64,000 nucleotides of DNA. Source: Sphingomonadales bacterium. GTDB lineage: Bacteria > Pseudomonadota > Alphaproteobacteria > Sphingomonadales > Sphingomonadaceae. Made by a program: the position numbers and the translations under genes. The notes below the pieces were generated by a model. That model made no database searches and had not been told where the DNA came from. It saw only the letters and a list, made by a program, of their open reading frames with translations. This document shows, piece after piece, positions 5,378 through 9,756 of the stretch (the first letter of the stretch is position 1; every line of letters begins with the position of its first letter). The stretch lies in NCBI GenBank assembly GCA_025352685.1, contig JANXSN010000064.1:1-64000 (forward strand), in the 5' to 3' direction.

Positions 5378-6910
5378 ATGATGTCCAACCGCCTGTCCGC
5401 CAATACCAGCCGCCGTTCTGTCCTTAACGCCGGGATCATCGGCGCGGGGCTGCTCGCAACACCCGGGGCTACCTTTTCTGCAACGGGCGATGCTGCCAAC
5501 CTCATGAAGGCTATCGAAGCGGGCAATGACGCCGCGGTAAAACGGATTCAGGAGTGGATCGCGCTCCCGTCGATTGCTGCCGAGAACCGCGACATGCAAA
5601 AGGGTGCCGAATACATGGCCGCCCTTGCACTCGACGCCGGATTCCAAAAGGCTGAAGTTCTTCAGACGTCGGGCCATCCCGGTGTGTTCGCAACGTTCGA
5701 TGCAGGCGCACGGCGCACGATGGGCATTTATTTCATGTACGACGTGAAGCAGTATGATCCTGCCGAATGGTCGTCACCGCCGCTTGAAGGGCGGATCGTC
5801 GACAAACCCGGCTTTGGCAAGGTCATCGTCGGGCGCGGCGCGATCAACCAGAAGGGCCCCGAGGCGACGTTTCTGTCGGCGCTCCATGCATTTCGCGCGT
5901 CGGGTACCAAGTTACCCGTCAATCTCGTTCTGATCGCCGAGGGCGAGGAGGAAATTGGATCGCCCAATTTCAAGGAACTCGCGACCAAGCCGGCGGTTCT
6001 GGCTGCCCTCAGGAAATGCGACGGCGTCGTCATTCCGTCGGGCTGGCAGGACAAGCAGGGCAAGGTCGAGGTGAACCTGGGTGCCAAGGGGATCATCGAA
6101 CTCGAGCTGATTGCAAGTGGCAAGCACTGGGGGCGTGGCCCGGCCAGGGATTTGCACTCGAGTTACAAAGCGATGGTCGATTCGCCCAGCTGGCGGCTCG
6201 TGCACGCGCTTCAAACGCTGGTCAGCGCCGATGGCAATACCCCTGCGATCGATGGCTGGTTCGAAAACGTGCGACCCTTGTCGTCGAGCGAAAAGGCGTT
6301 GATCGCTGAAAACGCGCGCCGTTCGAATGAGGGCGAGATGAAGACAACGCTCGGCGTCCAGCACTGGATCGATGACTTGCCGTTTCCGGCAGCGCTCGAA
6401 CGACTTGCCTCGCAGCCGACCGTCAATATCGAAGGTCTTGTCGCTGGCTATACCGGCCCCGGTGGCAAAACCGTGTTGCCGTCACGCGCGGTCGCCAAGA
6501 TCGATTGCCGGCTTGTTCCTAACCAGACCCGCGCAGAGGCCACACGCAAGCTGCGTGCGCATCTCGACAAGCGCGGGTTCACTGACGTTGAAGTGAATGT
6601 GTCAGGCGGATACGACCCCACCGAAACTGCTGAAGACAGCCGTGTCATCCGCGCCGAACTCGCGACGTACAAGCGAGCGGGGGTCGTCGCGACAATCACG
6701 CCGCGCCTCGCCGGATCCTGGCCGGGGGCCGTTTTCACGGCATCGCCGGTGTCGATCCCAGCAGGTCAATTCGGGCTCGGACACGGCTCGGGCGCGCACG
6801 CTCCCGACGAGTATTACGTTATAGAGTCGAGCAATCCCAAGGTCGCAAGCCTGCCGCAGGCGACGATGGGTTTCGCCGACTTCCTCTATCAGGTCGCGGC
6901 GATCAGCTAG
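5378..6910 (+). CDS. Tat-exported M20-fold peptidase homologue with missing metal ligands
   Basis: This 510-residue protein begins with a twin-arginine signal (SRRSVLNAG at 11-19, hydrophobic to about 35), so it should be exported folded to the periplasm. The body aligns with M20 dipeptidases: GRGAINQKGP (153 on), EGEEEIGS (188-195), DLHSS (258-262) and a late GHGSGAHAPDEY. However, the first zinc His is Met120 in FMYDV, the bridging Asp is Asn157, and the third ligand region reads VVIPSG instead of carrying an acidic residue. The catalytic Glu pair and the last His remain. It may be a one-metal enzyme, a changed chemistry, or a binding protein. The fold is confident; activity is open. Confidence 0.8.
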   Translation: MMSNRLSANTSRRSVLNAGIIGAGLLATPGATFSATGDAANLMKAIEAGNDAAVKRIQEWIALPSIAAENRDMQKGAEYMAALALDAGFQKAEVLQTSGHPGVFATFDAGARRTMGIYFMYDVKQYDPAEWSSPPLEGRIVDKPGFGKVIVGRGAINQKGPEATFLSALHAFRASGTKLPVNLVLIAEGEEEIGSPNFKELATKPAVLAALRKCDGVVIPSGWQDKQGKVEVNLGAKGIIELELIASGKHWGRGPARDLHSSYKAMVDSPSWRLVHALQTLVSADGNTPAIDGWFENVRPLSSSEKALIAENARRSNEGEMKTTLGVQHWIDDLPFPAALERLASQPTVNIEGLVAGYTGPGGKTVLPSRAVAKIDCRLVPNQTRAEATRKLRAHLDKRGFTDVEVNVSGGYDPTETAEDSRVIRAELATYKRAGVVATITPRLAGSWPGAVFTASPVSIPAGQFGLGHGSGAHAPDEYYVIESSNPKVASLPQATMGFADFLYQVAAIS

Positions 6911-6919
6911 ATCCTGACG

Positions 6920-9445
6920 CTAGAATCTTTTGCGGAAATTGATTTCGATGATCCGGCCGCGGGCATCGAGGTAGCCGGGTTGATAGCCCAGGGGAATCAG
7001 GCCACTTCCGTCGTGTACCTCGCGAATCGTGTCGAAGAGGTTCATGATGCTCAGTCGAATACGCGATCCCTTGAGGAACGGTACTGCGCCAATCAGCTTT
7101 TTATTGCTGTCAAAATTCATGAAGGCACTCAGGTTGACAGTCGCGAGGTCGCCAAAATCAAGTGTGGAGGTGGCGGTCGATCCCGTCACTACCGAGCCGC
7201 TCTGATAAATCCCGGTCATGCGAACGCCGATCCCCTTGTTGAACCAGCCCGCGTCGAGATCGAAGCTGTGGCGCGGGCTACCGCCCGACGTGCCGGTCGC
7301 GTCGCCGCCAAGCAGGTTGAGGACCGGCAGGCCCGGGCGGATCTGGACCTGATCCTTGAATCGGATGCTGTCATACAGGGCAATCGTCCACCGACCCCCT
7401 TGGGTCCCGCCATTGCCGAAGCCGCGCCCAAAACCGCCCCCGCTGGGACGCGGGCCGCCACCGCCACCAGGAGGCGGGCCGCCCAGAAAGCCGGAACCTC
7501 GTCCACCCGCTGGTTGACCGAATTCCTTTTGGAACGTGAAGCCCACGCGTACCACGTCGCTCGCGGTCGCCGCGAAATTGACGCTGCGTCCGTCGATCGA
7601 GACGAGCCGCCCACTGGCGTCGCGGCTCACTCGACTGGCAAACGCGGCTTCGATGTCAGGCGTGAGCGGTGGGAAGGCGGCAACGGGGTTGGTGCTGCGA
7701 TTTCGGAAGAAATCGACGCTGACGGTCAGCCCTTTCAGTTTTGGCGGCTGGTAATTCAGACTGACTTTGGCGTCACGCTGAACTTCGGTTAGCAGCGCCG
7801 GATTGCCGCCAGAAATGCGGTTGACCAATACGGTTTCCCCTCGCGTGAAATCGTAGGTCGGAACGCCTGGTGTCACGATCGCAGGATTACCGAGCGCCCC
7901 GATGTCGGGCTCGTTTTCGCTGCCGATCGCGCTGGCTAGCAGGGTGACACCCTCGAGAGGCTGCCAGTTGAGGCCATAGCCAAAGCTGATCAGGTTGCCG
8001 AAGTCCGAAAGGTGGCGATAGCCCAGATTGCCGTTGATCGATAACTTGCCGAGAGCGGCGGCAACACCGCGGTCGGCACTCGCGAGCGGAATATCGATAT
8101 TGAGCCGCCCATTGGCTTCATCGCGGGCAAGATTTGTCCCGAGTGGGGTGCCGCTCCTTAGCGTCTCGCTGTTCAGCCGGGTCGTCGCAAAGCCGACGCG
8201 GACGGTGGTGCGGATCGCGCCCGCCGGAAGCTCGATGAGTGGACCCGACAGCGTGTAAATGCCGCTCGATGTGTAGGTTTGGGTACGTGCCGTATCACGC
8301 GCCACGAATGGCACGCTTGCTGGGAAGGCGGCGAGATAAGGATTTGCGGTGCTGCCGGGAGCCGAGATCGCGGTCTGCACTGCAGCTGCGTCGATGCCCC
8401 GATCAGTTAGCGTCGAGGAAATCGAGCGGTCATAATTGCCGGTCAGCGTCCAAAACCATTTATGGATATTGCCGTTGACGGTTAGCCCGGCGTGCAGCGC
8501 ATCGGTCTGCGTCGCGCGGGCCAGTGCAGGGATGAATCCGCGCGTCAACACAACGGGTGCACCAGCGGGAGAAAAGCTTTCTCCCGCAGGGATGGTGAAC
8601 GTTCCAACGGGAACGCCGAGCAGGGCGTCGCTCGTGTCGCGCTGCCAACTGAGGTTGACGGTCGCCGATACCGTGTCGGTGAGCTTGCGGTTGAGGACGC
8701 TGTTGAGTTTGAGCGTGTTCGACGCCGGCAGCAGCGTGCGATAGAGCCCGGTATCAGCAAACGGAAAGACGGTGGCGCGCTGGACGATGTTGCGGTCGCT
8801 TTCGAGGACCTGCGTATTTTTGTTGTACTGCCCCCCGATCGTCAGCCGACCCGTCTTGCCGATATTGACGAGCGTTGCCTCTGCCTCACCTTCGCGGCGA
8901 GCGCCCGCTGTTGAGCCCCGGTATTCACCATTGGTCGTTATCGCCCGAAAATCGTCCTTCAGGATAAAGTTCACAACCCGCTGATCGGCGGAATAGCCGT
9001 ATTGCAGGGCAACTTCTTCGGGCAGAATTTGCACCCGCTTGATGGCCTCGGGCGGCAAGTCGCGAAGTTCGCCGAACCCCGAAATCCGAAGACCGTTGAG
9101 CAGGACAACGGGGCCGCCGCTGCCGCGTCCCCGGCCGGGGCCGGTCTGCGGTGCGAGCGCGGCCAGCAATTCGGTGATCGACGTCGCACCGTAGCTTTCA
9201 ACGGCCTGTTCGCTCAGCTCGACGACGGGGGGGACGTCGCTGATGACGCTGCCGGTGAGATGCGGTGCGGTAACGACGATTTCGTCATTTGCCGGCGTGG
9301 GGTCAGGCGAAGAGGTCGTGTTAGAATTTGCCGGAGTGTCTGCGGCGATTGCTGAAGACGGTGAGGTTGAAATCGCGACGGCGACAATCACGGGACCCAA
9401 GATACGCATCGACGGCTGCATAGCTTTGTTTGATGAACCGAGCAT
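6920..9445 (-). CDS. TonB-dependent outer-membrane receptor with Gly-rich insert
   Basis: An outer-membrane beta-barrel receptor of about 840 residues. It has a signal segment (MRILGPVIVAVAIS onward), a plug domain with a DEIVVTAPH segment, VVLLNGLRISGFG and EVALQYGYSADQRVVNFILKD, then a barrel ending in a terminal Phe. In the barrel a low-complexity Gly/Pro-rich stretch (complement of about 7425-7515) lies between strands. Receptors of this kind with Gly-rich loops are common in sphingomonads, and their ligands are mostly unknown. The first ATG is used here; an in-frame TTG lies six bases further upstream and later ATGs are possible. It converges with the M20 gene, nine bases away. Confidence 0.88.
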   Translation of the reverse strand: MLGSSNKAMQPSMRILGPVIVAVAISTSPSSAIAADTPANSNTTSSPDPTPANDEIVVTAPHLTGSVISDVPPVVELSEQAVESYGATSITELLAALAPQTGPGRGRGSGGPVVLLNGLRISGFGELRDLPPEAIKRVQILPEEVALQYGYSADQRVVNFILKDDFRAITTNGEYRGSTAGARREGEAEATLVNIGKTGRLTIGGQYNKNTQVLESDRNIVQRATVFPFADTGLYRTLLPASNTLKLNSVLNRKLTDTVSATVNLSWQRDTSDALLGVPVGTFTIPAGESFSPAGAPVVLTRGFIPALARATQTDALHAGLTVNGNIHKWFWTLTGNYDRSISSTLTDRGIDAAAVQTAISAPGSTANPYLAAFPASVPFVARDTARTQTYTSSGIYTLSGPLIELPAGAIRTTVRVGFATTRLNSETLRSGTPLGTNLARDEANGRLNIDIPLASADRGVAAALGKLSINGNLGYRHLSDFGNLISFGYGLNWQPLEGVTLLASAIGSENEPDIGALGNPAIVTPGVPTYDFTRGETVLVNRISGGNPALLTEVQRDAKVSLNYQPPKLKGLTVSVDFFRNRSTNPVAAFPPLTPDIEAAFASRVSRDASGRLVSIDGRSVNFAATASDVVRVGFTFQKEFGQPAGGRGSGFLGGPPPGGGGGPRPSGGGFGRGFGNGGTQGGRWTIALYDSIRFKDQVQIRPGLPVLNLLGGDATGTSGGSPRHSFDLDAGWFNKGIGVRMTGIYQSGSVVTGSTATSTLDFGDLATVNLSAFMNFDSNKKLIGAVPFLKGSRIRLSIMNLFDTIREVHDGSGLIPLGYQPGYLDARGRIIEINFRKRF

Positions 9446-9756
9446 TGCCAACTTGGGTCTCGTGAAACTACGCGGCGTAGCTCGGTCGCAAGGCGACCTT
9501 GAGACGACGCGGTATTAGGGCCATCTGCGCCGCCACGGCGCGCCGCAGGCGTTTCCCCTTTCCTCCTTTATGCACGCCGCGTCCACCGTATCGAAGCCCA
9601 CCGCATCGAAGCCCACCGCGACGACGACGCCGTCATCGGCGGTGGTCCCGACGTTGGCCACAATCGTCAACCGTGCCTTGGTCACGCAGTAGTTTTGCAA
9701 CCATGCCTGACGTCGCTCACGAACAACCGTGGCTGCGCGTAGCGACCTCTCTCGCG
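9446..9756. other. Intergenic stretch with a 15-base tandem repeat
   Basis: About 310 bases lie between the TonB receptor start and the end of cysK. A 15-base unit, accgNatcgaagccc, occurs twice in tandem at 9585-9614. A leftward frame of 61 codons covers it, starting at TTG 9700, but it has no convincing ribosome site or recognisable product. Presumably the receptor promoter is here. No terminator hairpin for cysK was seen. Confidence 0.4.

Follow-up and report, generated by a model that had tools for sequence, protein, structure and literature searches.

Closest described M20 proteins

The closest described relative of the protein studied here is the metallo-carboxypeptidase Sso-CP2 (PDB 4mmo), which is the best match both in sequence (phmmer E 2.5e-53) and in fold (at 32% identity). 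It has the motifs DLHS, EGEEEIGS, TVLP/TIVP...RLVP and HAPNE in common with the protein in the window (the whole stretch of 64,000 nucleotides that was analysed), but it carries His, Asp and Glu where the window protein has Met, Asn and Pro/Ser, and it does not have the insert ahead of DLHS. The carnosinase CN2, a cytosolic non-specific dipeptidase (2zof, 4ruh), is likewise similar in fold, and its E166, E167, H445, H228, T330 and R343 all have equivalents in the window protein, whereas its H99, D132 and D195 are replaced by Met, Asn and Pro/Ser. The metal ligands of CN2 are His99, Asp132, Glu167, Asp195 and His445, with Glu166 as the catalytic residue, and bestatin, too, is bound by the metal at H99/D132/D195, through its amine and hydroxyl end (PMC6271292). 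ArgE and DapE (8uw6, 7rsf, 3isz, 5vo3) have the same fold, and their mono-zinc forms are examples of one site being filled alone. The ligands of Zn1 in E. coli ArgE are H80/E169/D112 and those of Zn2 are D112/E145/H355; however, the site filled in mono-zinc ArgE is Zn1, which is the one missing in the window protein (PMC11270798). The concept of a conserved fold with lost metal ligands is that of the inactive metallopeptidase homologues, which have been reviewed (PMC11266112) in a text that does not discuss M20. No description of M20 homologues without the Zn1 site was found in the literature searched, which covered few subscription papers, and a listing in MEROPS is possible.

The gene, its product and the export signal

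The gene and its signal region are located as follows.
5378..6910, + strand: gene for the Zn1-less M20-fold protein of 510 amino acid residues (open reading frame, Pfam M20 and M20_dimer matches, AlphaFold2 model, fold match to Sso-CP2)
5378..5485, + strand: signal peptide region with the twin-arginine motif S11-R12-R13-S14-V15-L16, read from the sequence, the end of the signal being an estimate

The product matches Peptidase_M20 (E 7.6e-15) and M20_dimer (E 1.1e-11) of Pfam, both above the cut-off. Its AlphaFold2 model, predicted from a 24-row alignment of its nearest relatives (clade A, see below), has a mean pLDDT of 85.5 and a pTM of 0.83, with lower confidence in the signal region, at residues 132-135 (pLDDT below 50) and in the blocks near 191-200 and 471-480 (69-76), which are active-site loops. 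The best fold matches of the model in the PDB are Sso-CP2 (Z 39.0, rmsd 2.4 over 429 residues), CN2 (Z 35.1) and DUG1 (Z 34.2). With a catalytic domain, an inserted lid/dimerisation domain, Pfam matches over the cut-off and matches to M20 structures, the protein is without doubt of the M20 fold and carnosinase/Sso-CP2-like. It falls outside the Sso-CP2/PRK06446 subfamily, since PRK06446, the best NCBIfam model, scores 230.7 bits against a curated cut-off of 369, and the protein sits in a separate clade with a support of 100/100.

The RRSVL at residues 12-16 is followed by a hydrophobic stretch, as in the RRxhh pattern of Tat signals, and a Tat signal with export of the 510-residue protein is thus predicted with good support. 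An RR-type signal is found in 97/111 of the clade-A relatives, and about seven of the remainder have an apparent Sec-type leader instead.

Residues at the metal sites

The residues were mapped through alignments to the solved M20 structures Sso-CP2, 2pok, DUG1, CNDP1 and CN2, which gave the following positions, all on the + strand.
5735..5737, + strand: Met120, at the first His metal ligand (CN2 H99); Met in 112/112 of clade A and 8/8 of clade B, Met or Gln in clade C
5741..5743, + strand: Asp122, the Asp of the HxD motif, retained, with no variation in either the superclade or canonical M20
5846..5848, + strand: Asn157, at the bridging Asp (CN2 D132); Asn in all members of clades A, B and C (130/130), Asp in every canonical row
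5852..5854, + strand: Lys159 of the GxxNxKG motif, retained by alignment
5948..5953, + strand: Glu191 (general base) and Glu192 (Zn2-site ligand), retained and aligned to CN2 E166/E167; Glu191 is kept even in the plasmid-borne relatives L137 and L141, both without Glu192 and His474
6035..6049, + strand: Pro220-Ser221 at the fourth ligand (CN2 D195; Glu in Sso-CP2), with the clade-specific Gln224; Pro220 and Gln224 each in 111/112 of clade A
6128..6142, + strand: W251-G-R-G-P255 insert ahead of the lid His, found in the majority of superclade members but not in canonical M20C
6155..6157, + strand: His260 of DLHS (CN2 H228), the substrate/oxyanion His of the lid domain, retained and invariant
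6470..6511, + strand: Thr365 and Arg378 at the CN2 T330 and R343 positions, substrate-contact residues, retained; Arg378 invariant, Thr365 invariant in clades A and B
6797..6799, + strand: His474 at the CN2 H445 position, Zn2-site ligand, retained in 112/112 of clade A, 8/8 of B and 10/10 of C, and aligned with the His of HAPNE in Sso-CP2

A di-metal M20 peptidase has the five ligands H, D (bridging), E, D/E and H, of which E192 and H474 alone are left in this protein; the fourth position aligns to Ser221 or Pro220. As read from the alignments, Met120, Asn157 and Pro220-Ser221 stand at all the ligand positions of one metal site, while the other site keeps its terminal ligands. The lost set is Zn1 in ArgE/DapE numbering and metal 2 in the naming of CN2. 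The general-base Glu ahead of the ligand Glu is present as E191 (112/112 in clade A), and the lid-domain His and the Arg for the substrate carboxylate are present as H260 and R378. We take H228, T330 and R343 of CN2 to be its contacts with bestatin.

These alignments agree with the original prediction, in which Met120, Asn157 and a Pro-Ser stretch took the place of three of the five metal ligands, and they bear out its statement that DLHS and the final His are kept, as His260 lies on CN2 H228 and His474 on the last His ligand. Its "catalytic Glu pair" needs to be divided: both Glu are present, but Glu191 alone is catalytic and Glu192 is a metal ligand.

The mutants H133A and D166A of the carnosinase CN1 have their activity abolished (PMC6271292). 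The ligands in the crystal structure of CN1 are numbered His106, Asp139, Glu174, Asp202 and His452, and by our own mapping, which follows spacing and number order, the two mutations hit the His and bridging-Asp positions that are altered here. Because the whole Zn1 set is gone and these two mutants are inactive, the normal M20 di-metal mechanism is not expected in the window protein.

Clade A and selection on the gene

A genome-wide survey yielded 80 loci at 60-88% identity to the 510-residue protein, and a superclade match at E <= 1e-60 is found in 68/298 genomes of the family, in a patchy distribution. Clade A, as defined here, consists of 112 aligned sequences with more than 50% identity to the window protein, some of them near-duplicates, in which M120, N157, E191, E192, H260 and H474 are each found in 112/112. 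Its hosts are Sphingomonadales, Caulobacterales, Hyphomonadaceae, Xanthomonadales, other gammaproteobacteria, Acidobacteria, Thermoanaerobaculia and Gemmatirosa (Gemmatimonadota). Between the window gene and its nearest relatives, dN is 0.08-0.19 while dS is saturated. Since more than 100 relatives share the strictly conserved replacements, the protein is being maintained, with its active site remodelled, and is not an enzyme in decay. The view that the chain is without decay thus holds, with replacements that are invariant across phyla, and the invariant substitutions, the strong purifying selection and the retained signal also favour the earlier proposal that the product would be a functional exported protein other than a normal di-zinc enzyme.

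In one Allosphingosinicella MAG, two clade-A copies lie near each other (L018:5001-6497 and L018:6923-8410). Three other clade-A copies (G286:C15:96692-98176, G020:C65:11938-13404 and G168:C4:554812-556314) have one internal stop each, from sequencing error or recent gene loss. The genome of the window holds seven other M20/M28 matches, and the frames read there have ordinary H.D and Glu motifs; no second gene of the Zn1-less kind was seen in this genome.

The vacated site in deeper clades

The proposed tree check of homologues showed that the three changes travel together, not only in clade A but across a whole superclade. Clade B (39-42% identity) has the motifs YMMYDVQP or YMMLDVQP and GATNQKGP or GATNTKGP, and clade C (about 31-35% identity) has YW[MQ]YDTMP, GA[TV]NSKGP and EGDEERM, with Gln at the Met120 position in most of its members. 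Plasmid-borne members come from Cytobacillus (L138), Bosea (L137), Natrialba (L141) and Natronosalvus (L156). In place of Met120, Asn157, Glu192 and His474, the Bosea protein reads His, Ala, Leu and Ala; in the Natrialba and Natronosalvus proteins the four residues are Met, Lys, Leu or Ile, and Glu. No plausible metal site can be read from these three sequences, which are likely metal-free relatives, and all three retain Glu191, His260, N350 and Arg378.

In a tree of 67 rows, the superclade is split from Sso-CP2, 2pok, DUG1 and three canonical M20 proteins encoded on plasmids by a branch 1.06 changes per site long, supported at 100/100. The tree was rooted at its midpoint, and the Natronosalvus protein was joined after the tree and placed via alignment alone. 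The branching order in the deep part is unsure because of the long outgroup branches and the midpoint root. The window protein has the marks of the superclade, which are residues other than His/Asp/Glu at the three Zn1 positions, the xxKGP motif, the insert before DIHS and monophyly, and the definition is loose at its edge because the Bosea protein has the first His and another member (L155) has an apparent bridging Asp. By alignment, the vacated site is present in the deeper clades too, including those of Bacillota and haloarchaea.

Gene neighbourhoods

No conserved partner gene was found for clade A past local synteny within genera. The pntB neighbour of the window recurs only beside an 88% relative (L002), and a TonB-dependent receptor neighbour recurs in L002, L082 and L083 only; these two neighbours are local, and no operon function is proposed for clade A. 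The gene at window 6920-9451 (- strand), convergent with the M20-like gene, encodes a TonB-dependent receptor-like protein that has a weak plug-domain match (E 3.9e-5) and a glycine-rich part near the C-terminal third. A DDE transposase fragment (PF01609) lies at the window's start (8-535).

According to Pfam, the clade-B genes adjoin genes for M14 carboxypeptidase with HxxE retained, M19 dipeptidase and amidohydrolase. The M14 carboxypeptidase-domain proteins beside clade-B genes (L113:5433-8456, L114:709-3777 and L116:1055-3835) have about 930-1020 amino acid residues and, as judged from the retained HxxE, are apparently active peptidases. A divergent clade-A member (L122) adjoins genes for DPP IV-type peptidase and amidohydrolase. 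The clade C proteins have lipobox-like leaders and are encoded in tandem arrays next to genes for MacB/FtsX-type ABC exporters. For example, L118:3791-10577 and L120:3575-10417 each hold four M20-like lipoprotein genes in tandem, followed by an ABC ATPase and a MacB/FtsX permease, and the array copies are strongly diverged, carrying Gln or Met where the first ligand would be. Among the plasmid-borne members, those of Bosea and Natrialba adjoin ABC permease genes, that of Cytobacillus adjoins genes for M14 peptidase and an ABC substrate-binding protein, and that of Natronosalvus lies near an M32 carboxypeptidase gene. These neighbours of clade B, clade C and the divergent relatives suggest the transport and breakdown of peptides or amides as a common thread.

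Proposed function and alternative explanations

We assume, with a probability of roughly 0.5, that the product would be an exported protein handling peptides or acyl-amino acids and holding at most one metal through Asn157, Glu192 and His474. These three residues may bind a single metal weakly at the remaining site, while in the periplasm Glu191 and His260 would act on a ligand that resembles an amide or a peptide. By alignment, the pocket that takes up the carboxylate end of peptides or acyl-amino acids in M20 enzymes is retained in His260, Thr365, Arg378 and Ser447, and the ligand probably has no free alpha-amine, which is the group gripped by the lost site in CN2. The protein would then work as a hydrolase with one metal or as a processor of its ligand, rather than as a classic di-zinc dipeptidase. 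The recurrence of the same vacated state in clades B and C is consistent with this proposal. Furthermore, N157, E192 and H474 are lost together in the Bosea, Natrialba and Natronosalvus proteins, where E191, H260 and R378 stay, and this coupled loss, probably one event in one lineage, points to the three residues as one residual metal site. Against a single metal, the remaining site is the weaker one in ArgE, whose mono-zinc form fills the missing one (PMC11270798), two protein ligands plus an Asn make a poor zinc site, the CN1 mutants are inactive, and clade A has no conserved neighbour that names a substrate. The gene itself belongs to an old M20-fold subfamily, in whose common ancestor the whole Zn1 site was lost and in which the replacement set Met120, Asn157 and Pro220...Gln224 has since been fixed.

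The main alternative, though rather doubtful, is a metal-free pseudoenzyme. The M20 fold would here have been taken over for binding or delivering peptides or acyl-amino acids in the periplasm, or for assisting an active peptidase as its partner, with Glu191, His260 and Arg378 serving ligand binding only. The plasmid-borne relatives that have no useful metal ligands yet keep E191, H260, N350 and R378 indicate a metal-independent role of the pocket, and the ABC permease and substrate-binding protein genes beside the plasmid-borne members, together with the lipoprotein-like clade C arrays by exporter genes, would fit such a protein. However, a metal-free binder would have no need to keep E192 and H474, yet both are unchanged in clades A, B and C (130/130), and the catalytic Glu191 does not vary anywhere.

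A normal two-metal M20 hydrolase, with the second site completed by a residue such as Gln224, Glu130, Asp108 or Met120, is improbable. Glu69, Asp108, Glu130, Gln224, Glu241, Asp403 and Arg443 are among the positions that clade A conserves and canonical M20 does not; of these, Gln224 is new, nearly invariant and near a lost ligand, and Glu69, Asp108, Glu130 and Glu241 are clade-A-specific acids that could speak for a restored site. In M20D, which has a Cys/His ligand set, a ligand change with retained activity is known. Nevertheless, the alignment columns showed no new His, Asp, Glu or Cys that is fixed in all three clades and able to replace the lost ligands, the closest being Asp403, which is already Asp in half of the canonical rows, and the bridging carboxylate that both metals need is an amide in 130/130.

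It is more improbable still that the vacated site has turned to another metal, for example as a Met/Asn/His/Glu site for copper or a soft metal, or to new metal-independent chemistry. Met120 is invariant in clades A and B at the former His ligand and an export signal is present, but most of clade C has Gln for this Met, no metal-handling gene is conserved alongside, and the idea is purely inferential. Finally, a decaying former peptidase retained by chance in the lineage, for which the loss of metal ligands as a usual sign of decay, the three relatives with an internal stop and the patchy occurrence could be cited, is excluded for practical purposes by the replacements fixed in more than 100 orthologues from several phyla, the low dN against saturated dS and the intact reading frame with its signal.

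Implications for the M20 family

The finding is wider than what was predicted from this one gene, as the alignments delineate a conserved subfamily of the M20 fold in which one metal site has been vacated. We put forward, tentatively, that a new active site (Met/Asn/Gln with Glu-Glu-His) may be fixed across the superclade in bacteria and haloarchaea and may carry out one-metal or metal-free chemistry on amide-like ligands, which would be a reaction centre not described for M20. The public annotation of the plasmid-borne relatives is 'M20/M25/M40 family metallo-hydrolase', and because of this label members of the superclade are probably misannotated in many genomes. Moreover, the same fold is found with two metal sites in canonical M20, with one, or with none, as in the Bosea and Natrialba proteins, and always with the substrate pocket retained, which amounts to a natural experiment. 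The superclade therefore offers a test of the role of each metal in M20 and of the conversion of a metallopeptidase to something else.
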